From contig NZ_DAOUQB010000015.1 of NCBI RefSeq assembly GCF_030625865.1, positions 1 to 62,675 of the forward strand: a stretch of DNA of 62,675 nucleotides. Direction: 5' to 3'. The position numbers were made by a program, and so were the translations under genes. Below are positions 1,340-18,506 of this stretch, piece by piece. The notes beneath the pieces were generated by a model that had not been told where the DNA came from, ran no database searches, and saw nothing but the letters and a program-made list of their open reading frames with translations. This stretch comes from Anaerotignum sp. GTDB taxonomy: Bacteria; Bacillota; Clostridia; Lachnospirales; Anaerotignaceae. Within the stretch, counting starts at the first letter, position 1. The number at the start of each line of letters is the position of its first letter.

Positions 1340-2185
1340 ATGTACGATACAATCGTTAAAATAAATAATTCTCTCATTCAGCATGGACTCAGGAATAACA
1401 GAATCTATCTTATGCATTTAGCTAAGGAAGACATGCCTGAAATATTAAGTGAATTAGATACTGCGGCTGATAAAAACAGCTATACTAAAATATTTGCCAA
1501 GGTTCCGGATTCTTTTTCCAACTCGTTTATAGAAAACGGATATATTATGGAAGCTCGTATACCGCTGTTTTTTGATGGAAAAGAAAATTGTATTTTTATG
1601 GCTAAATATCTAGATGCAAAACGAAGTTGCACAATAAATAATGAACTGAATAAAAAAGTACTGGAAAATGCACTCTCAAAGAGTTCTTCGGATTTTTCCC
1701 AAGGAAAAATCATTTTAAAGGACGATTTTACTTTTAGAAAAGCAAATGCTCAGGATGCCTTGAACATGGCAAATTTATATACTCAGGTTTTTGACTCTTA
1801 CCCATTTCCAATCTCTGATCCCGAATATATCAAAGAAACAATGAACAGTAATGTAATTTACTTTGGCATTTGGAAAGGAAGTGAACTTATCGCTCTTTCG
1901 TCCTGCGAGATTGGTCTAGAAGATAGTAATGTGGAAATGACAGACTTCGCAGTGAATCCAACTTATAGAGGTTACAATTTTTCTTATTTTTTATTGAGAG
2001 AAATGGAAAAGGAAATGAAAAAACAAGAGATAAAAACGGCATATACCATTGCTCGTTCAGTATCTTATGGTATGAATGCTACTTTCGCAAAATGCGGTTA
2101 TACTTTTTCCGGAACACTTATTAATAACACACAAATCGGCGGAAAAATTGAAGATATGAACGTATGGTATAAATCTTTGCAATAA
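1340..2185 (+). CDS. ablB: Beta-lysine N6-acetyltransferase (GNAT)
   Basis: A 281-residue protein with a C-terminal GNAT fold (about residues 130-281). The acetyl-CoA loop is seen in the stretch TDFAVNPTYRGYNFSYFLLREME, in which RGYNFSY replaces the usual Q/RxxGxG/A. The N-terminal 120 residues are specific to this family. It lies 48 bases upstream of lysine 2,3-aminomutase, which is the ablA/ablB pairing known to make the osmolyte N-epsilon-acetyl-beta-lysine. The start follows a strong AAGGAGG site. Function is assigned mainly from the partner gene plus the GNAT domain. A role in detoxifying beta-lysine rather than osmoprotection is possible. Confidence 0.85.
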   Translation: MYDTIVKINNSLIQHGLRNNRIYLMHLAKEDMPEILSELDTAADKNSYTKIFAKVPDSFSNSFIENGYIMEARIPLFFDGKENCIFMAKYLDAKRSCTINNELNKKVLENALSKSSSDFSQGKIILKDDFTFRKANAQDALNMANLYTQVFDSYPFPISDPEYIKETMNSNVIYFGIWKGSELIALSSCEIGLEDSNVEMTDFAVNPTYRGYNFSYFLLREMEKEMKKQEIKTAYTIARSVSYGMNATFAKCGYTFSGTLINNTQIGGKIEDMNVWYKSLQ

Positions 2186-2236
2186 ATTTCATTTTAATGT
2201 TAAAAATATAAATTTAAAAAATTAAGGGGGACTTTG

Positions 2237-3571
2237 ATGAATAGTGAAGCAATTGTAAAAAATGTTAGTTTAGATTTAAGAGGCAATTTATTAAATAAAA
2301 ATGAACGAATAAATCAATCATTAATAAATAATAAAAATAGTTTTTCTAATGTCAGTGCCAAAGATTGGAATGATTGGAAATGGCAAATGAGAAACAGAAT
2401 AAAAACCGTCGATGATTTAAGGAAATACATCAAGCTTACTCCGGAAGAAGCAATGGGTATTAACAAATGTCTTGGTACTTTAAGAATGGCAATTACCCCG
2501 TATTATCTTTCCTTAATAGACCAGAGTGATCCGAATGATCCCATTAGAAAACAAGCAATCCCAACTACCTCAGAGTTGGAATTATCCAGCTGCGATTGTG
2601 AAGATCCTTTACATGAGGAAGCTGATTCTCCGGTTCCCGGTCTTACACACAGATACCCGGATAGAGTTCTTCTTTTAGTTACTGATAAGTGCGCAATGTA
2701 TTGCAGACATTGTACCAGAAGAAGATTTGCAGGACAAACAGACCAATCACTTCCCATGGAGCAAATTCAAAAAGCAATAGAATATATCGAAAAAACACCT
2801 GTAATAAGGGATGTCCTTATATCAGGCGGGGATCCTCTTTTGCTGTCTGACGAAAAACTGGAACAAATCATAAAACGTCTCAGAGCCATACCACATGTTG
2901 AAATAATCAGAATCGGTAGCAGAGTTCCCGTTGTTATGCCCCAAAGAATAACACCAGAACTTGTAGAAATGTTGAAAAAATACCATCCAATTTGGTTAAA
3001 TACCCACTTTAATCATCCTAATGAGGTCACCCCGGAATCAAAAAAAGCATGTGAGATGCTTGCAAATGCCGGAATTCCCTTAGGAAATCAGACGGTACTT
3101 TTGCGAGGGGTAAACGACTGTATTCATGTAATGAAGAAATTAATGCACGAGCTTGTAAAAATAAGGGTAAGACCATACTATATTTACCAGTGCGATCTCT
3201 CCATGGGGATAAAGCATTTCAGAACAAAGGTTTCAAAAGGAATCGAAATCATAGAAGGTCTAAGAGGACATACTTCAGGTTTCGCAGTGCCAACCTTTGT
3301 TATTGATGCCCCCGGTGGCGGTGGAAAAATTCCAGTAATGCCAAATTATTTGATTTCAACAGCTGAAAACAAAGTAATCCTGCGAAATTACGAAGGTGTC
3401 ATTACAACCTATAATGAGCCGGATGATTATGTTTCCGAATGCAATTGTAAAGATTGCATAGAAAAAAAGAATAATAAACAAATTGGTCTTTTGAAATTGA
3501 TTTATGATAAGAAAATATCACTGGAACCTTCTGGTCTGATCAGAAATGTACGAAATAAAAAAAATAATTAA
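2237..3571 (+). CDS. ablA: Lysine 2,3-aminomutase (radical SAM, PLP)
   Basis: Converts L-lysine to L-beta-lysine using a 4Fe-4S cluster, SAM and PLP. The 444-residue protein (ATG at 2237, six bases after AAGGGGG) aligns to the Clostridium subterminale enzyme with a constant offset of +27. Cluster cysteines are C152, C156 and C159, the PLP lysine is K364 in GGGGK, and zinc cysteines are C295, C402, C404 and C407. Substrate aspartates D320 (YQCDLS) and D357 (VIDAPGG) match D293 and D330. Glutamate 2,3-aminomutase is reported to have Lys and Asn at these places, so lysine is the supported substrate. The N-terminus is extended by about 27 residues compared with C. subterminale. Confidence 0.93.
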   Translation: MNSEAIVKNVSLDLRGNLLNKNERINQSLINNKNSFSNVSAKDWNDWKWQMRNRIKTVDDLRKYIKLTPEEAMGINKCLGTLRMAITPYYLSLIDQSDPNDPIRKQAIPTTSELELSSCDCEDPLHEEADSPVPGLTHRYPDRVLLLVTDKCAMYCRHCTRRRFAGQTDQSLPMEQIQKAIEYIEKTPVIRDVLISGGDPLLLSDEKLEQIIKRLRAIPHVEIIRIGSRVPVVMPQRITPELVEMLKKYHPIWLNTHFNHPNEVTPESKKACEMLANAGIPLGNQTVLLRGVNDCIHVMKKLMHELVKIRVRPYYIYQCDLSMGIKHFRTKVSKGIEIIEGLRGHTSGFAVPTFVIDAPGGGGKIPVMPNYLISTAENKVILRNYEGVITTYNEPDDYVSECNCKDCIEKKNNKQIGLLKLIYDKKISLEPSGLIRNVRNKKNN

Positions 3572-3585
3572 GCTACAAAGAATCA

Positions 3586-3703
3586 TAACCACGCCTAAAT
3601 GACGTGGTTAGCACTAGCCATATAAGGGCTTATCAGTAGCCAGCGCCTAAATGACGCTGGCTTTCACTTCGTTCAAGACTCGGTGGTATGATTATCTACC
3701 ACC
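3586..3703. repeat. Hairpin array with repeated loop; possible IS200/IS605-type remnant
   Basis: Two 25-base hairpins, at 3586-3610 and 3638-3662, have different 8-bp stems (TAACCACG/CGTGGTTA and AGCCAGCG/CGCTGGCT). They carry the same 9-base loop, CCTAAATGA. A third hairpin at 3682-3703 (GGTGGTA/TACCACC) follows a GTTCAAG box. Compensated stems with a conserved loop suggest a structured end or RNA. The CCACGCCTnnA...CGTGG look recalls right ends and guide RNAs of IS200/IS605 TnpB elements, but no tnpA or tnpB is present. The rest of 3572-3802 shows nothing else. Confidence 0.4.
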
Positions 3704-3802
3704 CTTACCTATTAACTTTATTCAAATACACTAACAAAATTTCGTTTCCTCTACTACCTCATTACAGGTGACGTTACTATTAAACTTTATATTTTTAAGC
3801 TT

Positions 3803-4702
3803 CTAAATTTCTTCATTTGATGTTATGGTTTCTGCAACTTCTGTTTTTTTAACCGCAGATTTGAACATCGTTAATGACGTATATAAAATAACTACAATTA
3901 CCAACCATTTCAATGTGTTCAATGGCATAGATTTAACAATATACGCTGCCACCAACACACCAACTGCACCAAATAATGTAATAGCTAGGGATGCTTTCTT
4001 ATCATAGGCTCCTTCTTTTACAAATTTTACACCAGCTGCCGGCATAAGGAAAGCACAAGAACCCATCATTATAGGGAAAGCAACTTTAGGACTAAGACCT
4101 AACGCATATACTAGCGCCATACAAGGTGCATATAATCCGATACCCAATGTCATAAGCGCCCCTAAAATAAAGTTTGCAACAATTCCAATGATTAATTTTA
4201 TTCCTGTAAGGCCAATGGCTTCTCCGCCAACAGGGAAAATGCCTGCTTGACTAAACAACATGATAACTGCAACAACCAAAAGTGCAATTCCCATACCCAT
4301 TTGAACTTTTTTCTCATCAAGTTTCGATACAACACCTGCTCCGAGTACAGCTCCAACCGCCGCTGCACCAAGCATACTAAATAAAGTAACTGCCTCTACT
4401 TTAATAACCGTTAAGAAAACAAAAGCTTCAAGAACAACAGGAATTGTCATTGATACGTTTAAAGTTCCCGGTAAAGTTTTGTCCTTTGATAAATTAAAAA
4501 ACTTAAATAATGCTGTGGTTGGAGCAAAGCTCCCTATCCCTAAAGTGTCAAAAAAATTTGTAACAAATCCTACCCCGCCAAGAGCAAAAAAATTAGTTTT
4601 TTCAAGTTCACCAGCATTTTTCACCTTAATATAATCTCGAATAAACATTACTAAAAAATATAATGTAATAATAAAGAGCAGTCCTAGAACGATTTGTAAC
4701 AC
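3803..4702 (-). CDS. TauE/SafE-family membrane permease
   Basis: A 299-residue integral membrane protein of the TauE/SafE (DUF81) family. It has about eight to nine hydrophobic helices arranged as two related halves, with glycine-rich stretches near residues 45-60 (GGVGFVTNFFDTLGIG) and 180-200 (ILGALMTLGIGLYAP). Members export or import sulfite, sulfoacetate and other small organic anions. It starts with GTG seven bases after GGGAGGA and is the last gene of the prd operon, 55 bases after prdF. An attractive but unproven role is movement of a proline-fermentation substrate or product such as 5-aminovalerate. Confidence 0.85.
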   Translation of the reverse strand: MLQIVLGLLFIITLYFLVMFIRDYIKVKNAGELEKTNFFALGGVGFVTNFFDTLGIGSFAPTTALFKFFNLSKDKTLPGTLNVSMTIPVVLEAFVFLTVIKVEAVTLFSMLGAAAVGAVLGAGVVSKLDEKKVQMGMGIALLVVAVIMLFSQAGIFPVGGEAIGLTGIKLIIGIVANFILGALMTLGIGLYAPCMALVYALGLSPKVAFPIMMGSCAFLMPAAGVKFVKEGAYDKKASLAITLFGAVGVLVAAYIVKSMPLNTLKWLVIVVILYTSLTMFKSAVKKTEVAETITSNEEI

Positions 4703-4757
4703 GTTTTATTCCTCCCTTAAGTTTTTTATGAAAAGTATAGGAATTCCCCTCCGCTAA

Positions 4758-5765
4758 TTAATCAACAACAAAACCGTATTTCAAAGGATCATCAGGATCA
4801 ATCAAAAACTCATTAATACCTGTTATAAAGGCTTTTCCGCAAATTTCCGGAATAACCGCTTTATATTCGCCCACTTGTGTTTCTCCTATGATCCTTGCCT
4901 TAAACATAGTTCCTGTAATACTCTCGTAAACAAATTCTTCATTTATTCCAATGAGTCCTTTGCTATATAATGTTGCAATTTTTGCACTTGTTCCTGTTCC
5001 ACATGGTGATCGGTCAAACTGTCCATCGCCAAAAACAACAACATTTTGGGCAGATGCTTCTGGACTTTTCGCCGATCCATAAAATTCTACTAAATCTGCT
5101 GTATTAATGTGGCTAAGTGTTGGGTGTTGTACCTCAATGGTTTCATTTACAATATTTCGAATCAACATACCCAAGCTACAGATTTTATTGGCATTTGATG
5201 GACTTATTTCCATATTCACATCTTCAGCTTTTACAAGAATAAAGAAACTTCCTCCAAACGCAATATCAACTGGAACTTTTCCAATTTCAGGGATATCTAT
5301 TTCCACATTTTTCTTGTACACAAATGACGGAACATTTGTAATCGTCGTCTCTTGCGCTCTTCCATTTTCAACTTTTACCTTAGCTTTAATTAAACCCGCC
5401 GGTGCTTCCAGCGTAACATAAGTATAGGGTTCTTCAACCGGTACCATACCCGTTTCTACAGCAATCGTTGCCGCACCTATAGAACCATGACCACACATAT
5501 TTAAATAACCACCTGCATCCATGAAGATGATCCCTAAGTCTGCTTCTGAAGATATCGGTTGCGTAATAATCGAACCAAACATATCTTTGTGGCCTCTTGG
5601 TTCATGCATAATACTTGTGCGTAAATAATCCAAGTTTTTATCTAAATATGCCTTTTTTTCTGACATTGTATTTCCCGGTATCACTGGAACTCCTCCTGTT
5701 ACAATTCTTGTAGGTTCGCCCATAGTATGGGAATCAATTGCATGAATTGTTCTTATGGCCTTCAT
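4758..5765 (-). CDS. prdF: Proline racemase
   Basis: Interconverts L- and D-proline without a cofactor, supplying D-proline to the reductase encoded upstream. The 335-residue protein has both catalytic cysteines: C91 in MCGHGSIGAA and C255 in DRSPCGTGTSAK. These are the paired acid and base thiols of the proline racemase family, as opposed to Ser/Thr variants in hydroxyproline enzymes. Length is normal. It is the sixth gene of the prd operon. The context makes proline, rather than 4-hydroxyproline, the likely substrate. Confidence 0.95.
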   Translation of the reverse strand: MKAIRTIHAIDSHTMGEPTRIVTGGVPVIPGNTMSEKKAYLDKNLDYLRTSIMHEPRGHKDMFGSIITQPISSEADLGIIFMDAGGYLNMCGHGSIGAATIAVETGMVPVEEPYTYVTLEAPAGLIKAKVKVENGRAQETTITNVPSFVYKKNVEIDIPEIGKVPVDIAFGGSFFILVKAEDVNMEISPSNANKICSLGMLIRNIVNETIEVQHPTLSHINTADLVEFYGSAKSPEASAQNVVVFGDGQFDRSPCGTGTSAKIATLYSKGLIGINEEFVYESITGTMFKARIIGETQVGEYKAVIPEICGKAFITGINEFLIDPDDPLKYGFVVD

Positions 5766-5870
5766 AATTGCTCTTCTTCCTCTCTTTTTTAAGTTTAAAA
5801 AAGCTAATACATTTTTGCATTATGTTGTAAAACCGTATTTCCCCCAACATTCATTAATTTTTACGGTATC

Positions 5871-7115
5871 CTAAATCAAAGAATGAATTACACCATCCAA
5901 ACATTGATTTGGCGTAATGACAAAAGGAGTGTTTCGCATATCAATAAGATTTCTGGCACCAATATATCCGCCCGGTTGATTGGGAAACACTGCGGTATCA
6001 TACATATTGCCAAGACCGGAAACAATCTTCACCAAAACCACTCTACTACAGTTTGGTCTAATCACATCATAGAATTCATCCGTTGCATATGGCATATCTT
6101 CTATATTATGCATCTGTTTTCGTATCTCATTTAATACATGATCTGCCAAACGATGTGCAGCTTGAATTCCCGTTGCAGTACGCCCCTCTCCATTCTCAAA
6201 CAAAAAATCCATGTGGAGAATACTATCATCTTCAGCTGGCGTGCCTGACTGATTAAACCTGATACAATGATCCATGTATCCTTCCGAAGATCCAATATTT
6301 GAGGGCTGGAAGCCGCTCACATCCTCAACTCCGGTAAGCATAACCGTAGCGCCCGCTAAAAGACGAGTCTCTCCAGCCCCTAAATTGCCACTTTGCTTAT
6401 AGGCTATGGGCATAAAATCCAAATTCGAATTAATAAACTGATGATGTTCATTGGGCTTGATCAATCGGACATGCATTTCTTTTACACTGGGTTCCAAGCC
6501 CACAAATCCTTCTTCAATACCTCCCCTTATTGTCAAAATTCCATGTGAGATATCCGTCTTTTCCCCAAATCTAATCTCTTCGATGGCATAATTCTTCCTA
6601 ATCAACCGCATTACCCTTTTTTCTTCGGCTGCCAAATCCTTTCGAAAATTTCCCATTTTCTTCATCTTGCTCTTAAGCAATGCAACTGCTTTGATTGCAT
6701 CATACGCACTTAGGTTGTTGTCTCCAACAATACATGATTCATATCCGGATGCATTCTTGTTGAAATCAACGATGGTTTCAACATAATTATTTGTACAAAC
6801 AAGCCGCCCCTGCTGTCCTATGTAACTCATGCCAATGGACGGTATCCCCTTCATTCCTAACTGTTCAATCACATTTACAAAATCAATATGGTGATTTCCC
6901 CATCCGTCAATGGCTACAATTGCTCCATCTGCTCTCATGCATCCAGCGATATCTCCAGTCCTTTGCGCTGTAAACACCTTGTCATCAAAACTTTCAGATA
7001 CACCATTTACTATGATTCCGCTAAAATCCAGTTCCTTATCCTTCAGCAACTGTTTCGTAATCGGGCAATGATAGTGATGCAGCGTCGTCATTTTTATACT
7101 CGGTCCTAATCCCAT
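5871..7115 (-). CDS. PrdA-like protein with halves in permuted order (PrdE-PrdD-type fusion)
   Basis: The start is taken at the ATG at 7113-7115, preceded by AAGAGG, giving 414 residues. A longer GTG start at 7151 has no good site. Residues about 1-153 resemble the C-terminal half of PrdA (residues about 410-553), sharing the GxGNxHIDF and GIPxxGxS motifs. Residues about 165-412 resemble PrdA 157-402, sharing TGVEDVSG, GSSEGYMD and the closing TPNQxxDGxIH. The protein stops two residues after that IH, where PrdA continues ALT-Cys and is cleaved. It therefore lacks the pyruvoyl-forming cysteine. Known prd clusters carry PrdA-like accessory genes (prdD, prdE). Here both halves appear as one chain. 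Its role is unknown, perhaps assembly or maturation of the enzyme. Confidence 0.85.
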   Translation of the reverse strand: MGLGPSIKMTTLHHYHCPITKQLLKDKELDFSGIIVNGVSESFDDKVFTAQRTGDIAGCMRADGAIVAIDGWGNHHIDFVNVIEQLGMKGIPSIGMSYIGQQGRLVCTNNYVETIVDFNKNASGYESCIVGDNNLSAYDAIKAVALLKSKMKKMGNFRKDLAAEEKRVMRLIRKNYAIEEIRFGEKTDISHGILTIRGGIEEGFVGLEPSVKEMHVRLIKPNEHHQFINSNLDFMPIAYKQSGNLGAGETRLLAGATVMLTGVEDVSGFQPSNIGSSEGYMDHCIRFNQSGTPAEDDSILHMDFLFENGEGRTATGIQAAHRLADHVLNEIRKQMHNIEDMPYATDEFYDVIRPNCSRVVLVKIVSGLGNMYDTAVFPNQPGGYIGARNLIDMRNTPFVITPNQCLDGVIHSLI

Positions 7116-7194
7116 AACATAACCTCTTGTCCTAATATATGAATAGAGCACAAATTTCCATTCGCACTCTATTCATCAACTACAGTCTTAATCG

Positions 7195-7920
7195 TTATAC
7201 ATTATGTCTGTATTCATAAGGAAGTATCTTTAAACCGTTGTAGCTGGGGCAATCTCTTATCCATTCCAAAGATTCCTTTAAAATTGCTGTCTGCATGGGG
7301 ATGTTATTGGGCTCTCCTGCATTGGAACCGATGGGAACATGGGGAGCCGTAATACGTGGTGCTCCCTGCTGACGAGCAATAGGAGGAAGTGCAGCAATCA
7401 CTACACAACTCATTCCTTCCGCTTCACAACAACGAGTAATGATAGTTGCTGAACGATGGCAAGTTCCACATCCGCCTGTGCACAATACAATATCAACACC
7501 TTGCGCTGCTAATTTTTTCGCGATTTCCGGACCGGTTTCATTACTGAATTTTTCAACATTTCCACCGCCACCCATGAAGGTGTATGTTTCTTTTGGAAGC
7601 GAACCGATGAATCCTTCTTTTAATAACTCATGAAGACGATCAATGGGGAACATTGCATTAACGTCCTTGTTGATATCCGAATTATCAAATCCACCATGGG
7701 TAACCATAAGCTCTGAAGATGGTGTATCAAATTCGATTGTACGATATGAGAAATCACCGGATGTGTTAAATGGTGTCTGACTTTTTTTGTGAATTCCACC
7801 TGCTGTAATAAAAGCCACTTTGCATTCATTGATTGGTTTTTTTAATTCTGTAAAAACCGGCTTTGGTGTCACCGGAACAAAGATTTCGGATTGCATTCCT
7901 TCTAGTGTTGTTAATTTCAT
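7195..7920 (-). CDS. prdB: D-proline reductase PrdB subunit, cysteine variant
   Basis: The PrdB subunit (241 residues) of D-proline reductase, which with the pyruvoyl subunit of PrdA reductively opens the D-proline ring to 5-aminovalerate. In the Clostridium sticklandii enzyme the active residue is selenocysteine (UGA) in the motif CTGG-U-GTCHR. Here the motif is CTGGCGTCHRS at residues 147-157, and codon 151 (7468-7470) is TGT. The reading frame has no internal UGA. All other motif residues are kept, so a sulfur-based enzyme is likely rather than a dead one. It sits between the two-repeat small protein gene and the permuted PrdA-like gene. Confidence 0.93.
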   Translation of the reverse strand: MKLTTLEGMQSEIFVPVTPKPVFTELKKPINECKVAFITAGGIHKKSQTPFNTSGDFSYRTIEFDTPSSELMVTHGGFDNSDINKDVNAMFPIDRLHELLKEGFIGSLPKETYTFMGGGGNVEKFSNETGPEIAKKLAAQGVDIVLCTGGCGTCHRSATIITRCCEAEGMSCVVIAALPPIARQQGAPRITAPHVPIGSNAGEPNNIPMQTAILKESLEWIRDCPSYNGLKILPYEYRHNV

Positions 7921-7974
7921 GAAATTCTCCTCCTGTTATAACTGTTATAATTAATTTCTGTTATAAACGACTTT

Positions 7975-8424
7975 TTAAATAAATGATGCCGGAATCTCTC
8001 TTTTTTGCATCACTTCCATGCAGCTGAGATAACACTCTACGTCCTGCCCTACTTCCAGAAAAAGGGGTGTGAAGAACCAACGTCGGGGAACAGCTACTGT
8101 TCCAAATCCGTTTGCTATCTCAACTTTTCCTGCGGTATCATTTACTTCTATCAGTTTTCCATTTATGAAACACGGTCTAATACTATGGTTTGTATTTAAA
8201 TCCGAAAAGTCATAGTCAAAAGCATCCTCAACGACTTTGATATAGCTAAAATAAAATTGTAGTTCATGACCAGTTTCTATTTTTGTATCTCCTACAATCA
8301 TACTTCTGGGAACTTCCAATACACCAAGTCGTCCATGCAGATGAATTTTAACGGATTGATCTGTTGCCTCTTTCACCAATCCTCCCATTAATACAGGATT
8401 GATTTGATAAGTCGCGGCACCCAT
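7975..8424 (-). CDS. Conserved prd-cluster small protein with two internal repeats
   Basis: A 149-residue protein with no known catalytic motif. It is built from two similar halves of about 50 residues. Residues 13-65 run G-LVKEA...VKIHLHGRLGVLEVPRSMI...GHELQFYFSYIKVV. Residues 85-140 run GKLIEV...GKVEIANGFGTVAVPRRW...GQDVECYLSCMEVM. Both look like small beta-barrels. Its start overlaps the prdA stop as TAATG, so it is translationally coupled to prdA. A gene of similar size lies between prdA and prdB in other proline reducers. I do not recognise a function; a structural or maturation role is an inference. Confidence 0.8.
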   Translation of the reverse strand: MGAATYQINPVLMGGLVKEATDQSVKIHLHGRLGVLEVPRSMIVGDTKIETGHELQFYFSYIKVVEDAFDYDFSDLNTNHSIRPCFINGKLIEVNDTAGKVEIANGFGTVAVPRRWFFTPLFLEVGQDVECYLSCMEVMQKREIPASFI

Positions 8425-10199
8425 TAGTGTAACGTCCCGTTATCAAGTAATTTTGTTTCAGGAAGCCCCAATAACTTGTTGTTCTTATTAATAACGTCAT
8501 TGCTCCATTTCTTTGGAGCAGGAAGAACCTCAACGCCTGCCATCTTATTCTTCAGCATCTGAATTGCACGCACTGCTACTTCTTTCGTTACACATGAGCA
8601 CCCGGCAACATTATTCTCAAATCCGCCCTGATCCATATTCTCTTCAATCATAGCTGTAGCGTACTCATTACCGACCACTAACTGCCCCTGATAAGCACAG
8701 AAAGATACGCCGACTACAGGAATTCCACGCTTACCTGCCTGACCGATATGCTGAATAAAATCAATATGGTTGTTACCAAAACCCTCAGTTGTGATGATAC
8801 AGCCATCAATATCAAGACCTTCCAATAATGATCCAAGTCTCTCAGATACCCATAACTTCTCATCGTTAACCTGCGGCGATCCAATGCATACAACACCTAT
8901 TAAATCTAATTCTTCATCCATTGCCAAACCTTCTACCAGGGGTTCACGGATATAATGACGAGTCATCTCTTTGGTTGCGGGTCCAATACAAGTAAGTGCA
9001 TGGATAGATCCGTCTCTAACCTGGTTCGGCGTTAAAATAATAGGAACGTTACCGCAGTCAACGTTCTTCTGTCCACCGAGGATGCCACAAGGTTCTGTAG
9101 GGCAAAGTACGTTATCATGCATTGCGCCCTGTCCCATGATCTCTTTTACAAGAACAACACGAGGGTTCCCTTTTCTTCTAACGTCTTCACAAATTTCTTC
9201 TTTAATTACTTCGCCTTCATATTGCTTTAATTCGTTCCGAACTGCCTGAATGATATAGTCCTGGCATTTATGTGCCGCAAAAGGCCCCGGTCTTGTCATT
9301 CCTGAAAGTCTCTTAATCACTGCATGACAACGAATGATAATATCATTTTCATCTGCACAACCGGGATGTCCGAAATACATCTTTTCATCAAGGAATCCCT
9401 CTGAAGAACCAAATTCATGAACCTGCACGCCATCCTCGTCAACACCCGTAAGCATAAAGACTACGCCGTCTGCCACTTTTGTGATTCCTTCGCCTAACTC
9501 TCCCTCGATCTTTGTTGCAATGGGGCATACATCCATAATTGTTTCTGTATAGAGGTGACGTTCCTCAGGTTTTATTACATCCAGTTTCAAGCTGACACAT
9601 AAAGGATCTTCTTCCGCTGCTTTTTTTACGATGCTTCCATCAATTGTTATCTTTCCGTCTTTAATTGATGTTTTCTTTCCAATCTCAGCATCAACAATTT
9701 TGATATGCTTCTTGATTAGTTTTCTGATTACATGCTTCTCACCCTTGTTCTCCTGTACAGGTGCCGGTACCTGCATGCTGCCGCCAAGTGCTGCTCCAAC
9801 AGGAATATCTAGAGATAATCCTTCTAACTTATCAATATTTACATGAATCATACCAGTTCCTCCTACATATGTATTTGAAGCCATAATCTGTTCTGAATCT
9901 TTTTCATCTTTCACCAATGCAGTGGCCTTAAGCGCTGTCTCAACCTGATTAACCTTATCCAATACATCCCTTGTAATTGGTGTCAGAGCTTCTACATTTG
10001 TTAATAATGTGCTTCCCAACACCTGTTCAATTGTAAGTGCATCATCACTCAAAGTGAGCAGCCCTGCATCAATCATATCTTCGAATAACCCTGGATCTTC
10101 CAAGTCTGCTGCTCCGATAACCGCCCCTTTCTCCCTACGACAACAAAAAATTGCCGGATCTTTTAAATGATTTTTTAATGTTTCCTGTGTAATTGACAT
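8424..10199 (-). CDS. prdA: D-proline reductase PrdA proprotein (pyruvoyl subunit precursor)
   Basis: A 591-residue proprotein. In the characterised enzyme it is cleaved at an internal cysteine to give a large subunit and a small subunit whose N-terminus becomes a pyruvoyl group that binds D-proline. The matching site here is T403-C404 in SIHALTCIGP, which would give fragments of about 403 and 188 residues. The C-terminal part carries GFGNNHIDF and NVAGCSCVTKE. Start ATG at 10199 follows GGGGTG by several bases. The stop overlaps the next ATG. Length and cleavage position agree with the family. Confidence 0.95.
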   Translation of the reverse strand: MSITQETLKNHLKDPAIFCCRREKGAVIGAADLEDPGLFEDMIDAGLLTLSDDALTIEQVLGSTLLTNVEALTPITRDVLDKVNQVETALKATALVKDEKDSEQIMASNTYVGGTGMIHVNIDKLEGLSLDIPVGAALGGSMQVPAPVQENKGEKHVIRKLIKKHIKIVDAEIGKKTSIKDGKITIDGSIVKKAAEEDPLCVSLKLDVIKPEERHLYTETIMDVCPIATKIEGELGEGITKVADGVVFMLTGVDEDGVQVHEFGSSEGFLDEKMYFGHPGCADENDIIIRCHAVIKRLSGMTRPGPFAAHKCQDYIIQAVRNELKQYEGEVIKEEICEDVRRKGNPRVVLVKEIMGQGAMHDNVLCPTEPCGILGGQKNVDCGNVPIILTPNQVRDGSIHALTCIGPATKEMTRHYIREPLVEGLAMDEELDLIGVVCIGSPQVNDEKLWVSERLGSLLEGLDIDGCIITTEGFGNNHIDFIQHIGQAGKRGIPVVGVSFCAYQGQLVVGNEYATAMIEENMDQGGFENNVAGCSCVTKEVAVRAIQMLKNKMAGVEVLPAPKKWSNDVINKNNKLLGLPETKLLDNGTLH

Positions 10200-10316
10200 T
10201 TGTTATCACACCCCTTTTTTTATTTTGTTTTATCTTTTCAACTCCTTCATGGAATTGTAAAGTGCTATCGTTTATACATCCGATCTTATTTCTATCAAAA
10301 CCCTTGGCTTTTACTT

Positions 10317-11612
10317 TTATTCTTTTATTCTTCGTACCAGTTTCATGTTTACTGCACGCAAGGGACCGTCTGTACAATGATAAACCGGTAATTTCAACTG
10401 TGGTGCACATGACATAACCGTATTGGAGCAATCTGTACAATTACTAATCAGCAAAGCCTGTGCCCCATCTTTTTTTAATTTCAAAACCTTTTGCACCTGA
10501 CCTGGACATTTTCCCGGGTTTTCACACTTTCTCGTCCCGTTTTTTAATTCTTTTGCTTGTTTGCAATACTCTATTCCTACAACCTTGGAACCCATGCTTG
10601 CTGCAATCTGCTCTAATCGCTCTTTGTTCCCACCGCACGCACATACCAAAAGTCCTATTTTTTCAGGTCCCTTCCAAAATTCTTCTGTTGCAATCAAACC
10701 TCCTGTTGTTTTAATAATGGGATCTTCAAGGCTTACCCTTTTTCCTGTAAATGGACCGCCCATAACAATTTCTCCATATTCCAAACCGATTCCGCCGGCT
10801 TCTTTAAACACATCACCAATGAGCATACCAAGGGGCATATCAAGCATAACCTGAAGTAACTTTCCCTGTAACTTTCCCGCAACCGTCATATCTTTCTCTA
10901 TTAGCGGCTTCTTATCTTCCACGGCTTCACGAATTTTGAATACTGTTTCCGCATTTATAACAATGGCATTGGCAGCCATGGGAAGCTGATCAACTTCTAA
11001 AAGTGTTCCAAGAACCTCACGCACAATTGCTCTTTCTTCCCCCATGGGATACATATTAGGGAGGGTTGCCACTGCAATATTTGATTCATTGATACCTGTT
11101 TTCAGCCGTTCAATCTCTTCTGTGTGAATATTCTTGATTGCAATAATTCCCTTGTTCGCCTTTACCGCTTCCATTACAATTTTGAGTCCTTTGATTAATT
11201 TATCTGCTTCTGTATCAATACGACGCATATTATGGTCTAATATCGGCTCACATTCTGCAGCATTTACAATCACCGTTCCCTCACCCGTAAATGGTTTTTG
11301 TAACTTTGCATATGTAGGAAATCCGGCTCCACCAAGTCCTACCAAACCTGATTCCCGAATCAAATCCAACGGTGCATCAGACGTAAGCTTTACATATTCT
11401 TTAGACTGTATTTCATCGGCAATAATACGAATTTGCTGTTCTGTGACTTCTTCTACCTCGCCTGATATGCTGGAAAAAACATTTGCTCCAAGTTGATCTT
11501 TCGGTGCCTCCGCAATCAGCTGACCTCTCAATACTTTGTCTCCCTTTTGTACAATTGGTTTCGATGGACTCCCAATATGCTGTTTTAATAGATATGAGAA
11601 TTTCCGTTTCAT
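10317..11612 (-). CDS. prdC: PrdC, RnfC-like electron-transfer protein of proline reductase
   Basis: A 431-residue RnfC/NqrF-like protein. It has a lipoyl-like N-terminal barrel, an FMN/NADH-binding core (ESGLVGLGGAGFPTYAK and MYPMGEERAI) and a cysteine-rich C-terminus (LLVCACGG, CENPGKCPG, SNCTDCSNT). It is thought to pass electrons from NADH to PrdA/PrdB. Some family members carry selenocysteine; this frame has no internal UGA and shows cysteines only. The start is the second of two ATGs, eight bases after AAGGAG. It is the first gene of the operon, with a 118-base gap before prdA that contains no other gene. Confidence 0.9.
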   Translation of the reverse strand: MKRKFSYLLKQHIGSPSKPIVQKGDKVLRGQLIAEAPKDQLGANVFSSISGEVEEVTEQQIRIIADEIQSKEYVKLTSDAPLDLIRESGLVGLGGAGFPTYAKLQKPFTGEGTVIVNAAECEPILDHNMRRIDTEADKLIKGLKIVMEAVKANKGIIAIKNIHTEEIERLKTGINESNIAVATLPNMYPMGEERAIVREVLGTLLEVDQLPMAANAIVINAETVFKIREAVEDKKPLIEKDMTVAGKLQGKLLQVMLDMPLGMLIGDVFKEAGGIGLEYGEIVMGGPFTGKRVSLEDPIIKTTGGLIATEEFWKGPEKIGLLVCACGGNKERLEQIAASMGSKVVGIEYCKQAKELKNGTRKCENPGKCPGQVQKVLKLKKDGAQALLISNCTDCSNTVMSCAPQLKLPVYHCTDGPLRAVNMKLVRRIKE

Positions 11613-11729
11613 TTTCATCTCTCCTTAGCTTTTTGTACATTTTAAAGTCGAAATATGCTATTCAATTCCCTTTGCTTCTTAAAAACATTTAGCGTATATT
11701 TAGAGTATATTTATAATATTGATATTTGT

Positions 11730-11743
11730 ATAACGATTGTTAT
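11730..11743. promoter_or_regulatory. Candidate LysR-type binding site upstream of prdC
   Basis: ATAAC-N4-GTTAT is a perfect interrupted palindrome that fits the loose T-N11-A LysR consensus. It lies about 118 bases upstream of the prdC start in the divergent region leading to a LysR gene. It is a candidate operator only, because short palindromes are common in AT-rich DNA. Confidence 0.3.
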
Positions 11744-11949
11744 TTCTATCAGTTAGTACAAACATTCATACTTGACCGGATTGTAACGCACCCGTATAGT
11801 TTGGTAAAATATAACTAAATCCAAAGAACTGTTGCAAATGGCAAAAACCTTATTTAAAAGAAAAAGCTCTTCGCCTCTATTCTGGAAGAATGTCGGACGA
11901 AAAAGCTTTATCGAACAATATCATATGAAAAAGAGCACATAATTTACTG

Positions 11950-12265
11950 ATTACAACAGCACCCGTAATAACGCCAATAAATTAAATTTTCAAGAAGAAA
12001 ACGATACCTATAAGAAATCAGACATCTACAATAAGAACTCGTAGATGTGCAAAAGAAAAATTCCTTCTCAAAGCAGAACTAGCAATAAATATGCATACAA
12101 CTGCTTAAAAAAGACATACACCTAGTAAAGAGATCATTCTTCAAAGCGACCAAAGAAGCCAGTTTACATCAACAAATTTGAAAGACTTTTGTGAGAAAAA
12201 TTATGTACATCACCGCATGCGTTGCGCTGGTTGTCCATATAATAAACCACCAATGAAGTGTTTTT
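11950..12265 (+). pseudogene. Possible decayed transposase (IS1182-like)
   Basis: The 805 bases between prdC and the LysR gene hold no intact gene. One frame reads NFQEENDTY near 11985-12011. A different frame reads CEKNYVHHRMRCAGCPYNKPPMKC near 12190-12261 (quoted in parts: a CxxCP-x6-C cluster). This order, an acidic DTY box followed by a CxxCP-C cluster, is typical of the C-terminal half of IS1182 transposases. Stops and frame changes separate the parts. The match is weak and may be chance. Confidence 0.25.
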
Positions 12266-12444
12266 TTAATACACTTAAAGCGAATATTTTAACTTGTATT
12301 CCTTTCACTCATCTGATGAACTCAATCAGGGAATCTATGAGTTTATTTATGTGAATACAATTATGAAAAACCTCATTCTAATTTTATACTCTAGTATTAT
12401 TTTACCTGACTAGTGTCAAACCTCTTTTAGAAAGGTGTGTATTC

Positions 12445-13332
12445 ATGGATCTCAATACTTATAAATTATTTAACATTGTAGCTGAACACGAAAATATTTC
12501 TTATGCTGCCAATTTAACAAAATATACACAGTCGAGTGTAAGCCATACCATGAAACGACTTGAAGATGAATTGGGCTTAAAGCTGTTTACAAGAGATAGA
12601 TATGGTGTTCATTTGACAACGGTTGGGCATGAACTGATCCCTAAGGTCAGAGAACTACTTGCTACCCATGCACAATTAGAACAATTCATAGATGATATTA
12701 AAGGTATTGAGTCTGGTACTATAAACATCGGTACGTTTTCAAGTATTGCTATTCACTGGCTACCTGCAATATTAGACGCCTACCATAAAAAACATCCCCA
12801 AATACATATTTTAATAAAAGAAGGTGGTATTGATGAACTCTACTCCTGGGTAACTAATCGGGATGTGGATTTCTGCTTTTATAATTATTGGCCAAGCCAC
12901 AATATTGAATTTATACCTATACAAGAAGATGACTATGTGGCAATTTTCCCGAAAGACTACCCCTTAGATAAGGATCTTGAAGCCTATCCTATTAGCAACT
13001 TCCATGAGAAACCTTTTATCTTGTTTGACCCAAGTATTGAAAAAAATATTCAAAGATTATTGGCAGAACAATATGTATCACCATACATACTTTGCTCCTC
13101 AAGAGAAGACTTTACCATTATGTCTATGGTTGAACATCATTTAGGCCTCAGTATTCTTCCACGTCTAATTGTAGAACAACGAAAAGAAAATCTGCAGATA
13201 CTACCGTTGTCGCCTTCTTATCAAAGAATTCTTGGTATCGGAATAAAATCGTACAAAGATGCTTCTCCAGCTGCAAAAAGATTCATTGATTTTGTAATGG
13301 ATTTTTTTAACAAAAAATTATCTTTCCAGTAG
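12445..13332 (+). CDS. LysR-family transcriptional regulator next to the prd operon
   Basis: A 295-residue LysR regulator with an N-terminal winged helix-turn-helix (residues 1-60, including SSVSHTMKRLEDELGLKLF) and an effector-binding domain from about residue 90. The start follows AAAGG. It diverges from prdC across an 832-base gap. In Clostridioides difficile the operon is activated by the sigma-54 regulator PrdR, which is absent here, and no -24/-12 promoter was seen. This protein is therefore the best local candidate for proline-dependent control, but that is inference. Confidence 0.9.
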   Translation: MDLNTYKLFNIVAEHENISYAANLTKYTQSSVSHTMKRLEDELGLKLFTRDRYGVHLTTVGHELIPKVRELLATHAQLEQFIDDIKGIESGTINIGTFSSIAIHWLPAILDAYHKKHPQIHILIKEGGIDELYSWVTNRDVDFCFYNYWPSHNIEFIPIQEDDYVAIFPKDYPLDKDLEAYPISNFHEKPFILFDPSIEKNIQRLLAEQYVSPYILCSSREDFTIMSMVEHHLGLSILPRLIVEQRKENLQILPLSPSYQRILGIGIKSYKDASPAAKRFIDFVMDFFNKKLSFQ

Positions 13333-14439: not shown

Positions 14440-15564
14440 CTAAAACATTAATGTTCCCGGTTTATAACCATCCGGTAATTCTTCTTCACTCAAAAATTTG
14501 AAATTATCGTCACGCAGTATTGGTAAAAATACTTCATATGGTATCTTGGAAAACTCACATCCATAGTTACTAGAGCCAAACCAGCCGCCTTCTTTTCCAT
14601 TTAAGTTCAAACCTCTTGCAAACTTTGTATGGTTTGAACAATCATGAACAACAAACCCCCATTTTTCTTCAACTGCCGCTTTCATAAATTTCAATGTTAA
14701 TTCCCTACTCCAAATAGGTGAAATATAGCCATGTCTGGATATATACATATTCTCTCCCCAATAATTATCTATGTTATTTCCATTCAAATGCAATTCCGCA
14801 CAATTGATAAAATCAAGTTTTGTATCCAAAATTGCTGGTTTTTTCTTAAAAAAGGCATCAAAGAATTCCGGTGTCATGGGTGTCTCAATGCCCACGTTCT
14901 TAATATATTTTTTTGCTATTCCAATATTTTCAATCACCTTGTCTGAACAATTTGAAGCCCCCAAGTTAAAACGTATTTCATCAAGGCCTGCCTCGCTCAA
15001 AGCTTTTAGTGTTTCTTCTGTCGCCAAAACACCATTTGTATAAAGATGTTGATGAATACCTGCAGCCCTAAATTTCTTTATCACGGAATAATATTTTTCA
15101 ATTTCCATAAATGGTTCTAAATAAACATAAGAAACACCTGTGGGTTTTGGCTGAATTGTAAGAAGTAAATCAATGTCTTTTTCATAAAATTTTGTTCCTC
15201 CAATTTCCCACATTCCTTCTCCAATAGGCGCAATCTCATCCAATTCTCCAAAATTATAGCAAAACTTACACTCTAAATTGCATTTGTTTGTTTTTCTGAT
15301 TGCAGTCAAACCTGTGCCCAAGAGGCAAGAACAACATCCTTTGGGGAATTTCTTATCCTCGCCTACATAAAAAGTTCGGTTTTCCAAAGTTTTTAAACCT
15401 TTGATTTCCGACATTAACATATCATTTCTATAATCAACTGCCCCTTCAATTTGTGCAAAGACAGCATACATAATTTCTTGCTGTGTAGTCAAAAGCGTTT
15501 CATCTTCCGGCAAAGCAGAGAAAAATTCAAACCACATTAGTGCATCTTTTTTTGAAATTTTCAT
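14440..15564 (-). CDS. Radical SAM protein of unknown function
   Basis: A 374-residue protein. The start is the ATG at 15564 preceded by AAAGGAG; an in-frame ATG upstream lacks a site. The radical SAM motif CNLECKFC gives C95, C99 and C102. It is preceded by an unusual GCCSC cluster (C77, C78, C80) that could bind metal. Downstream are TIM-barrel motifs (YLEPFMEIEKYY, LYTNGVL, EIRFNLGAS). There is no recognisable SPASM domain or substrate domain. It stands alone, with no peptide precursor or carrier protein visible nearby, and lies beside a decayed gene. The substrate cannot be assigned. Confidence 0.8.
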   Translation of the reverse strand: MKISKKDALMWFEFFSALPEDETLLTTQQEIMYAVFAQIEGAVDYRNDMLMSEIKGLKTLENRTFYVGEDKKFPKGCCSCLLGTGLTAIRKTNKCNLECKFCYNFGELDEIAPIGEGMWEIGGTKFYEKDIDLLLTIQPKPTGVSYVYLEPFMEIEKYYSVIKKFRAAGIHQHLYTNGVLATEETLKALSEAGLDEIRFNLGASNCSDKVIENIGIAKKYIKNVGIETPMTPEFFDAFFKKKPAILDTKLDFINCAELHLNGNNIDNYWGENMYISRHGYISPIWSRELTLKFMKAAVEEKWGFVVHDCSNHTKFARGLNLNGKEGGWFGSSNYGCEFSKIPYEVFLPILRDDNFKFLSEEELPDGYKPGTLMF

Positions 15565-15820
15565 ATTATTCTCCTTTAAGGTTTCCTTCAGCAAAACACA
15601 ACGTTCTGAAAAACTTTATCTTTTTACAATATTGCATCAGCTTATCAGAAAGTCTATTGTTTGCATTTTTTCATCTTGATTTTTAACTAACCTATTATAC
15701 CATAAAGTCCATTTAGAAGAACAGCCATACCGCATAATTTATCCACATTCAGCATGATACATTGGGATTATTTTCATTTATCACTCATCCACTTTATTCT
15801 CAAAAACTTTCTTTACTTTA

Positions 15821-15896: not shown

Positions 15897-18377
15897 TTAA
15901 ATAAACAAATTCACATTAGATTCTTCCGCATCTCCGAGGTAAGATGCAACCCCAGCATATTCAACACCGTCAAGTAATTCATCCTTTGTAATTCCCATAA
16001 TATCCATTGACATGGTACAGGCAACCAATTTGATTCCTTTGTTCATTGCATGCTGCATCAATGTTTCCAGAGAATCCACATTTTTGTCTCTCATAACTTT
16101 CTTCATCATAGCAGTTCCCATACCGCCCATGTGCATCTTAGAAAGTTTCAGCTTTTGACTTCCTCTTGGCATCATAGAGCCAAACATTCTGTCCATAAAC
16201 GGTTTTTTCACGGAAGGCCCATGAGATTTTCTTAAAGCATTAAGTCCCCAGAAAGTAAAAAACATGGTAACCGGTCTGCCCATAGAAGCAGCACCATTTG
16301 CGATAATGAATGATGCAAGTACCTTATCCAAATCACCGCTGAAAACAATAATTGTCTTTCCTTGGGGTGTATCTATCACTTGGTTTTCCTTTTTGGGGGT
16401 TACACCTTCTCCACCCTTTTTAATAAAAACAATATTTTCTTTGTTTTCTCTTTCTGTCTTTACCAGAGTATTTCCCGTTCTGCGGCACCATGAAGCAATA
16501 TCCGCTGAGAATCCCATATCCGTAGCGGATACCTTCAAAATTTCATTCTCCTTCATATCAGAGATTGTTTCACTCACCTTCATAATGGGCCCCGGACACT
16601 GTAAGCCACAGCAATTCAAAACTTTCATTTCTTTATCAGAAATTCTTGCTGGTTCTTCATTCTTTTTTTTTTCTTCAGGTTCGAAATGGGTTGTGCTGTT
16701 TTCATAGTGCATGGATTTATAAAATGATGTTCCGCCTGCCAATACAGTCACCTTTTTGAACCCATTTTGTCTTAAAATTCGTGCCGCATTATAAGAACGT
16801 ACACCAATTGTGCAATATATAATAATCACTTTGTTTTTATCCAATTCGCCAAATCTCTTATGCACCTGACCTATAGGAATATGATAAGAGCCTGGAATTG
16901 CAAATACCATTCTTTCCATGTCTTCAGTTACGTCCAAAACAACATATTCATTTTTCTTGCTTTCATCAGCCATTAAGGCATCCAATTCGTTCCACTGAAC
17001 AAAGCTTACTAAATCGTGTAAAATATTCTCTGCTACAAACCCCAACATATTAACAGGATCTTTTGCAGAAGAAAATGGTGGTGCATAAGCAAGTTCCAAT
17101 TCTTCCAGATCATAGACGTTTCCGTTTAAGCGCATTGTGGTAGCAAGGGTATCAATTCGTTTATCTACACCATCCTGCCCAACAATCTGCCCACCAAGGA
17201 TTTTTCCTTCTTTATCAAAAATCATTTTAAGGATTAAAGGTGTTGCTCCGGGATAGTATCCGGCATGGGATTTCTGGTTAATCAATGCCACAAAATAGTC
17301 CTGGTTTTTTACTTTTCCCATAGCTTTTAATTGTTTTTCATTCAGTCCCGTACTTGCAACATTTAAGTCAAATACCTTTGCCACTGCAGTTCCTAATGTT
17401 CCGTTATATGTTTTCTTGTCTCCAACCAAGTTATCTGCCAATATACGAGCCTGCTTATTTGCGGGACCGGCAAGGGGTATCATTGTTTTCTCTTTTGTCA
17501 CATAATTGGAAACTTCAATAACATCACCTACTGCATAAATACCAGGGATAGAGGTTTGGAGATACTCATCAACAAGCACGCCGCCTTTTTTATTCAGTGC
17601 CATTCCTGCTTGTTTTGCAAGTTCACTGTTTGGTCTTACACCAATGGATAAAATAACCAAATCAGCTTCCACAACTGTTCCGCTTGTCAATTCGATTTGT
17701 ACCACATTTCCTTTATGATGGAATTCTTTTACACCATCGCCCAAAATCAAATTAACCCGATTCATTACCATATTTTCATGAACCAAATTGGCCATTTCAG
17801 GATCAACCGGTGCCATAACCTGAGTCTGCATTTCAATTACGGAAACTTCCAAGCCTTCTTCATGAAGATTTTCAGCCATTTCAAGACCAATAAAACCTCC
17901 ACCGATTACAGCCGCACGTTTCGGTTTTTTCTCTGTAAGATAAGCTTTAATTTGATCTGTATCAGGTACTGTCCACAAAGTAAAAATATTATCGGAATTA
18001 ATTCCAGGGATAGGAGGCTTTATGGGTGAAGAACCTGTCGCCAAAACTAAATTATCGTAGGTCTCTTCATAAACCTCACCTGTTTTTTTATTTTTTACCT
18101 CGATTTTTTTCTCTTCTGGAATAATTCTTGTTACTTCACTGGATACCCGTACATCAATATTAAATTTATTTTTCATTGCTTCAGGTGTCTGCAGAAGCAG
18201 CGCATCCCTACTTGTGATTACATCCCCGATATAATAAGGCAAACCACAGTTTGCATAGGAAATATAATCGCCTCTTTCCAGCATAATAATCTGCATAGAA
18301 TCGTCTCTTCTACGAAGTCTTGCCGCTGTGGTAGCGCCTCCGGCAACTCCACCAACGATAATAGTCTTTTTAGCCAT
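15897..18377 (-). CDS. CoA-disulfide reductase / rhodanese / TusA / DsrE multidomain protein
   Basis: 826 residues from the ATG at 18377, which follows GAGGGGG; upstream codons lack a site. Modules in order: FAD/NAD(P) disulfide oxidoreductase (about 1-320; GGVAGGATTAARLRR, single catalytic C44 in YANCGLPYY) and a dimerisation domain (about 330-445). Then come a rhodanese domain (about 460-555; active IIIYCTIGVRS), a TusA-like sulfur carrier (about 580-650; CCGLQCPGP) and a DsrE/F-like domain (about 665-826). Together these suggest sulfane-sulfur transfer and reduction, for example of polysulfide or CoA persulfide, in the cytoplasm. A CoA-binding protein is encoded upstream on the same strand. 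Confidence 0.9.
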   Translation of the reverse strand: MAKKTIIVGGVAGGATTAARLRRRDDSMQIIMLERGDYISYANCGLPYYIGDVITSRDALLLQTPEAMKNKFNIDVRVSSEVTRIIPEEKKIEVKNKKTGEVYEETYDNLVLATGSSPIKPPIPGINSDNIFTLWTVPDTDQIKAYLTEKKPKRAAVIGGGFIGLEMAENLHEEGLEVSVIEMQTQVMAPVDPEMANLVHENMVMNRVNLILGDGVKEFHHKGNVVQIELTSGTVVEADLVILSIGVRPNSELAKQAGMALNKKGGVLVDEYLQTSIPGIYAVGDVIEVSNYVTKEKTMIPLAGPANKQARILADNLVGDKKTYNGTLGTAVAKVFDLNVASTGLNEKQLKAMGKVKNQDYFVALINQKSHAGYYPGATPLILKMIFDKEGKILGGQIVGQDGVDKRIDTLATTMRLNGNVYDLEELELAYAPPFSSAKDPVNMLGFVAENILHDLVSFVQWNELDALMADESKKNEYVVLDVTEDMERMVFAIPGSYHIPIGQVHKRFGELDKNKVIIIYCTIGVRSYNAARILRQNGFKKVTVLAGGTSFYKSMHYENSTTHFEPEEKKKNEEPARISDKEMKVLNCCGLQCPGPIMKVSETISDMKENEILKVSATDMGFSADIASWCRRTGNTLVKTERENKENIVFIKKGGEGVTPKKENQVIDTPQGKTIIVFSGDLDKVLASFIIANGAASMGRPVTMFFTFWGLNALRKSHGPSVKKPFMDRMFGSMMPRGSQKLKLSKMHMGGMGTAMMKKVMRDKNVDSLETLMQHAMNKGIKLVACTMSMDIMGITKDELLDGVEYAGVASYLGDAEESNVNLFI

Positions 18378-18469
18378 ATTGTTATCCCCCTCAGCTCTCA
18401 TTGTTATCTGTTTAACAGTTTTATTGATGTCATTATATATAATTTTCGCAGGTTCTGTCTGTAACCATG

Positions 18470-18506
18470 TCACAAAAAAAAAGAAATCATATCTAATGAT
18501 ATGATT
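18470..18506 (-). terminator. Rho-independent terminator
   Basis: AATCATATC and GATATGATT form a 9-bp stem with a 4-base loop. A nine-base T run follows on the minus strand. It separates the CoA-binding protein gene from the disulfide reductase gene. Confidence 0.8.

Follow-up and report, generated by a model that had tools for sequence, protein, structure and literature searches.

The window analysed here is a stretch of 62,675 nucleotides from Anaerotignum sp. (contig NZ_DAOUQB010000015.1), which carries on its minus strand a run of genes in the order prdC, prdA, a CBO2463-domain gene, prdB, the gene under study (ED in the following) and a proline racemase gene. The ED gene starts with an ATG at 7113-7115 and ends with a stop codon at 5871-5873, while the plus-strand translation of the same range contains many stops. 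For better orientation, all features are summarized in Table 1.

Table 1. Predicted features of the proline reductase gene run in the window, with the basis of each assignment.
Feature	Position	Strand	Basis
Proline racemase (prdF-like)	4758..5765	-	PRK13969, 576 bits
PrdE-PrdD fusion (ED), 414 aa	5871..7115	-	Open reading frame; halves match PrdA in swapped order; 33 distinct sequences including the window's
D domain of the fusion, residues 164-414, with homology to PrdD and PrdA (~154-403); last residue corresponds to T403	5874..6626	-	Profile and sequence comparison
Variable E/D linker	6627..6659 (bounds approximate)	-	Alignments, linker lengths
E domain of the fusion, residues 1-152, with homology to PrdE and PrdA (C404 onward); G2 in place of C404	6660..7115	-	Alignments
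prdB-ED intergenic region with 17-bp hairpin	7116..7194	-	Hairpin z -5.1; comparison across loci
prdB, 241 aa, Cys (TGT, 7468-7470) at the selenocysteine position	7195..7920	-	TIGR04483, 442.7 bits
CBO2463/CBO2479-domain protein, 149 aa, two matched stretches	7975..8424	-	NF041553
prdA proprotein, 591 aa, IHALT followed by the cleavage cysteine C404 (8988-8990)	8424..10199	-	TIGR04480, 864.5 bits; C404 invariant in a 37-row alignment
prdC electron-transfer protein	10317..11618	-	TIGR04481

With the SelB model as the only probe, no SelB above the family cut-off was detected in the window's genome (best score 192.9 bits vs. 242.25). Outside the gene run, the window encodes an 858-aa protein that combines a CoA-disulfide reductase part and a DsrE2 part (15897-18473, minus strand) and, near the prd cluster, a radical-SAM-like protein with weak family matches only (14440-15594, minus strand). 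An acetyltransferase adjoining a lysine 2,3-aminomutase (1340-3571, plus strand) resembles the gene pair responsible for synthesis of the osmolyte N-acetyl-beta-lysine.

When the ED protein was searched against its own genome, the only matches were the protein itself and two parts of the neighbouring PrdA, in swapped order. Residues 3-153 matched the part of PrdA behind its cleavage cysteine (34% identity, E=9e-29) and residues 164-413 the part in front of it (35% identity, E=6e-44), the E-values being those for one genome. This is the correspondence that a preliminary description, made from the letters of the window, had claimed for the two parts, and the search bears it out. A profile-profile comparison reported only residues 161-414 (E=5.7e-58), with the last residue paired with PrdA T403, and G2 stands at the position of C404. 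The proposed PrdA paralogue, reversed at the processing point and holding both ends of processed PrdA in one chain, was therefore recovered as described, except for a detail of its end: the chain stops three residues (S-L-I) after the IH motif instead of two, which places its end precisely at T403. Within the 414-aa chain, nothing matched the PrdA N-terminal domain (about residues 1-153).

Separate PrdD proteins already stop, and separate PrdE proteins start, at the site where PrdA is cleaved; as judged from sequence comparison, the gene is therefore a PrdE-PrdD fusion in reversed order (E-D). The break falls exactly at the processing site, yet this is a trait of the PrdD/PrdE family that did not originate with the fusion. 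The earlier idea of a break at precisely this site consequently holds for the position and fails for the origin, as the break was not made by permuting PrdA; it was inherited from prdD and prdE, whose ends and starts fall at the same residues. Direct permutation of PrdA was also discarded on account of the trees discussed below, which put the fusion with PrdD and PrdE, apart from PrdA.

Comparison with known families supports this assignment of the parts and shows where the fusion departs from each of them. The second half covers positions 2-245 of 246 of the PrdD profile (TIGR04482) and shares its C-terminal end, whereas it sits behind a PrdE part and reaches 235.4-235.5 bits, under the curated cut-off of 320 bits; one relative (L062) exceeds this cut-off with 350 bits. 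The first half starts with M-G-x-GPS as PrdE does, with Gly at the C404 position, and is 41-53% identical to PrdE proteins (38% to one divergent copy). However, PrdE is a free-standing protein of about 160 aa, while the E part of the fusion is joined to PrdD via a variable linker; no dedicated NCBIfam model for PrdE was among the matches. Both halves are homologous to the two processed parts of the PrdA proprotein (TIGR04480), but the order is swapped, the N-terminal domain and the cleavage cysteine are absent, and the score is 346 bits vs. a cut-off of 700. GrdE/GrdG (PF09338, component B of glycine/sarcosine/betaine reductase) is a distant superfamily match (73.7 bits, gathering cut-off 22.2) that differs from the fusion in order, size and enzyme system.

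The loci for comparison were gathered by several searches and are not a random draw. A search with the PrdD model covered 295 genomes of the order and 391 of the class, from which 34 stretches were fetched, and 41 named loci were added from a genome-contig scan in which at least 80 stretches matched its patterns. The domain census, with true stop codons, comprised 77 PrdA, 38 E-D fusions, 30 D and 31 E proteins, duplicates included, so that the survey for split and fused forms suggested in the preliminary description found both. Without duplicates, 33 fusions remained, all of them distinct and the window's among them. Loci from duplicate genomes (L098, L101, L105, L117, L120) were excluded from the gap survey, the concatenated and PrdA trees, the end counts, the dN/dS estimates and the codon-bias comparisons of the fusion with PrdA and with PrdB, while L120 and L102 were excluded from the codon-bias comparison of PrdD plus PrdE. 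The gap survey also omitted L095 and the PrdA tree L073.

For 25 of the 30 D proteins, a PrdE was found within 2 kb and the order was always D then E. As for the remaining five, PrdE lies far upstream in L067, and four are at contig or stretch ends or are fragments. An accessory D-E single chain did not occur in the census. A short D-E chain in L080 turned out to be a PrdA truncated by the contig end, and apparent D-E chains in L126 and L127 arose when the TGA stop of prdD was taken as selenocysteine (Sec), the genes being separate with true stops. A PrdA-like D-E chain that lacks the N domain and keeps the cleavage cysteine was seen outside the census on a Peptoclostridium acidaminophilum plasmid (L156, 5875-8007, plus strand); it continues in one frame into PrdB, with only the Sec TGA inside, and the annotation gives prdB alone. 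In several Sec-type clusters, the PrdA N-terminal domain is also found as a separate small gene (about 130-180 aa from stop to stop) just upstream of prdA, e.g. L126 3367-3783 and L090 6179-6643 (plus strand), so that each of the three PrdA domains also exists in free-standing form.

The fusion is uncommon. Among the 58 genomes of the window's family it was found in its own genome only, and no other of these genomes gave any match at all, PrdA included, which suggests that the fusion-bearing cluster in the window's genome was gained by transfer. Among the matches listed, the order sample of 295 genomes held the fusion only in its own genome, and the phylum sample of 398 gave whole-length matches only there. 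By the loci examined, the class sample of 391 genomes contained the fusion in eight (its own, G394, G423, G469, G489, G508, G564 and G586). The hosts are Bacillota, a Desulfovibrio, two metagenome-assembled genomes (MAGs) labelled Deltaproteobacteria and a spirochaete, and one further fusion, beyond the 33 distinct sequences, lies on the complete Enterococcus gilvus megaplasmid NZ_CP030933.1, where the record labels it 'glycine/sarcosine/betaine reductase component B subunit'. No relative was found on viral contigs, and a megablast of the region against plasmids returned none. In 31/33 distinct fusions, prdA lies within the same locus. Two Mediterraneibacter MAG contigs carry a fusion without an adjoining prdA (L123 5213-6463, L125 7001-8251); one of these MAGs has prdA on another contig, and in the other none was found.

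This distribution bears on the concern that two genes had been joined by an error in sequencing or assembly, or that the gene is a decaying pseudogene. Such an artefact would fit the odd order and two draft relatives without an in-frame start at the expected place (L107, L113), and nothing beyond. A sequencing error, which the preliminary description had named as a way to overturn its claim, is excluded by the 32 other distinct sequences, which show the same order across the hosts listed above, and by the complete plasmid, and dN/dS far below 1 speaks against decay. The probability of an artefact is therefore negligible.

With regards to the chain ends, six residues lead from a conserved DG to T403 in PrdA, and all 33 fusions stop after the same count. 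The 28 PrdD proteins with an uncut end do likewise, at the T403 position; for this count, the D piece of L102 and the 66-aa piece of L132 were left out, both at contig ends, and the piece of L136 was kept. PrdE starts with M or V followed by G-x-GPS in 28/29 cases, the 29th being the second copy in L081, with VGIST. This divergent PrdE-like protein (L081 11159-11701), which starts with VGIS in place of MGxGPS, is perhaps the PrdE2 named in C. difficile papers. The fusions start with M-G-x-GPS in 30/33 cases and with L-G-x-GPS in one (L124), the other two being the drafts mentioned above, and the inner E/D joint is variable among relatives. The C404 position is occupied by Gly in 97% of the 33 fusion rows and in 29/29 PrdE. 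Ends so fixed at the cleavage point would suit a maturase that binds around the cleavage loop in place of the processed neighbour and promotes the self-cleavage of PrdA and the formation of its pyruvoyl group, a role to which we return below.

Of the positions conserved in PrdA, the fusion retains 33/61 in the D domain and 22/52 in the E domain, and C404 is lost; it is therefore probable that the fold has been retained and that the pyruvoyl chemistry has not. No chain matching the fusion or PrdA was found in a Protein Data Bank sequence search (E up to 1). The retained positions also speak for a stoichiometric pseudo-subunit, in which the fusion would fill PrdA-like positions in a large reductase complex as a structural or docking element, e.g. 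for PrdC. On the other hand, N273, I274, Y372, D70 and W72 are invariant in the fusion and differ from PrdA, as might be expected of a separate enzyme that acts on another substrate by a chemistry without a pyruvoyl group. We consider such an enzyme very improbable, given that C404 is lost and prdA accompanies nearly all distinct fusions in the same locus.

In quick trees of the D domain (96 rows) and the E domain (99 rows), the 33 fusions formed one branch with a support of 99 each, and in a concatenated tree (82 rows) the fusions formed one branch with 100/100, as did PrdA, with the PrdD plus PrdE rows in between. The PrdA rows had been thinned to every second in the domain trees and every third in the concatenated tree. 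If PrdA is taken as outgroup, a root that is not proven, these trees are most simply read as a single fusion of previously separate genes.

A tree of 70 PrdA separated two clades, the first with 31 fusion clusters and two clusters with no accessory, the second with 29 PrdD/PrdE clusters and eight with none, and no exchange was seen between them. Two of the 29 PrdD/PrdE labels (those for the second prdA in L126 and in L127) were taken from the PrdE in the adjacent cluster, because the fetched stretch ends there, and one of the ten 'none' labels (L075) comes from a short contig that may have lost an accessory at its end. The fusion is accordingly found in 31/33 clusters of one deep PrdA clade and in 0/37 of the other. 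In the two clusters of the fusion clade without an accessory (G627, G166), a whole-genome search for PrdD found PrdA only. Several genomes with both systems pair each accessory with its own PrdA (e.g. L067, L122; L064/L087, L063/L088, L103/L126, L097/L133). Such pairing with one PrdA clade is a further point in favour of a pseudo-subunit. PrdB carries Cys in 27 of the 31 fusion clusters and Sec in four (L114, L118, L121, L124), while the PrdB of the other PrdA clade has Sec wherever readable. The change from Sec to Cys was considered as a cause of the fusion and rejected, since these four clusters have both the fusion and Sec; the fusion follows the PrdA clade, not Cys.

In eight of eight close fusion pairs, dN/dS was 0.03-0.15, with dS near saturation in some, which indicates that the fusion is under purifying selection. 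The dS of the fusion was higher than that of PrdA in 7/7 pairs and than that of PrdB in 6/7. Codon bias of the fusion was below that of length-matched PrdA in 30/31 clusters, with L106 as the opposite case, and below that of PrdB in 23/30; the window's own difference is small (48.5 vs. 47.3). For PrdD plus PrdE, it was below length-matched PrdA in 23/24. If codon bias and hairpins are taken as proxies for the amount of protein, this weaker bias suggests that the fusion is expressed less than PrdA and PrdB.

The hairpin between prdB and the fusion in the window has 17 pairs, and a z of -3 or lower was found in 19/25 prdB-fusion gaps and in 16/20 prdB-prdD gaps that reach 30 bases (of 23). Altogether, a strong RNA hairpin precedes the accessory gene (fusion or prdD) in 35/45 measured gaps; its sequence changes, and its position is fixed. 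In control gaps of at least 30 bases, the same threshold was passed by 3/18 between the CBO gene and prdB, 2/23 and 1/3 between prdC and prdA, 0/7 and 0/10 between prdA and the CBO gene, 0/2 between D and E, and 1/4 between the fusion and the racemase gene. Where no accessory lies downstream, 0/6 prdB-racemase gaps reach 30 bases. The hairpin matched no Rfam family at gathering thresholds (window 3500-12500). Possibly, it sets the ratio of the core enzyme to the accessory; it could instead stabilise the upstream message.

These data allow the possible roles to be weighed. We favour, with a probability of about one half, a non-catalytic factor of low abundance that imitates processed PrdA and assists assembly or stability. 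E and D together would make up a PrdA-like body that lacks both the N-terminal domain and the pyruvoyl-forming cysteine. As the chain starts where the small subunit of cut PrdA starts and ends where the large subunit ends, it would copy processed PrdA with the cleavage junction open. The fusion may then hold PrdB, or PrdA before its maturation, as arranged in the finished enzyme and later be replaced by cut PrdA, and in ordinary clusters PrdD and PrdE would do the same job as a two-chain complex. We infer that the fusion is made in smaller amounts than PrdA and PrdB and acts in this manner. Among the roles put forward in the preliminary description (chaperone, scaffold or pseudo-subunit of the reductase), the codon bias, the position behind a hairpin and the absence of an accessory from some clusters favour a helper of low abundance over a stoichiometric pseudo-subunit. 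In 10/70 clusters, no accessory was seen, i.e. it is not obligatory. One report argued for a protein-stabilising role of PrdD and PrdE from their absence from a second gene set (PMC3091704), in agreement with an assembly or stability factor.

Some observations run against such a factor. Two clusters of the fusion's own PrdA clade manage without it, and the reversed order arose once, so that it counts as one event and does not support an open junction repeatedly. Moreover, hairpins with z of -3 or lower were also found in 3/7 gaps between the stand-alone PrdA N-domain gene and prdA. In C. difficile, which is of the PrdD/PrdE type, a transcript study with ebselen gives increases of 11.2-, 11.3- and 18.6-fold for prdD/prdE vs. 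7.1 and 6.9 for prdA/prdB (PMC8557875). Accessory and core genes thus respond together, and a response of prdD and prdE like that of prdA would suit the pseudo-subunit.

The pseudo-subunit is the main rival, possible but doubtful. Besides the lower codon bias than PrdA in all but one of the clusters and the hairpin that separates the fusion from prdB in most gaps, the clusters without an accessory and the two MAG contigs with a fusion and no adjoining prdA count against it, and the purified C. sticklandii enzyme reportedly consisted of PrdA fragments and PrdB only. The maturase introduced above is rather improbable. The termini and the Gly at C404 would fit it, as would the proxies for low expression, but the ten clusters without an accessory do not, and in vitro processing of the PrdA proprotein is said, by the title of one paper, to have been described. 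We also entertain, as an unlikely and speculative extension, that the fusion and PrdD/PrdE are standing copies of processed PrdA that serve as maturation templates, driving self-cleavage, pyruvoyl formation and the exchange into the PrdB-containing complex; here, the cut junction would never be closed in the reversed single chain.

The similarity of PrdD and PrdE to PrdA is already published. In the parts of the literature covered by our search, the two have no agreed role in D-proline reductase, which belongs to anaerobes that ferment amino acids, and these parts contain nothing on the reversed fusion, its clade specificity, the two PrdA clades or the fixed termini. The fusion provides Rosetta-stone evidence for PrdD and PrdE acting as one unit and shows an orientation that permits their joining. 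Whether the pieces are separate or fused, their ends stay fixed at the point where PrdA is cleaved. As a single-chain accessory, the fusion is a more convenient object for expression, labelling and testing than a complex of two proteins. Finally, the fusion marks a second proline reductase clade, in which PrdB mostly carries Cys in place of Sec, and this Cys-PrdB clade lets a genome without a clear SelB, like that of the window, carry the proline reductase pathway.
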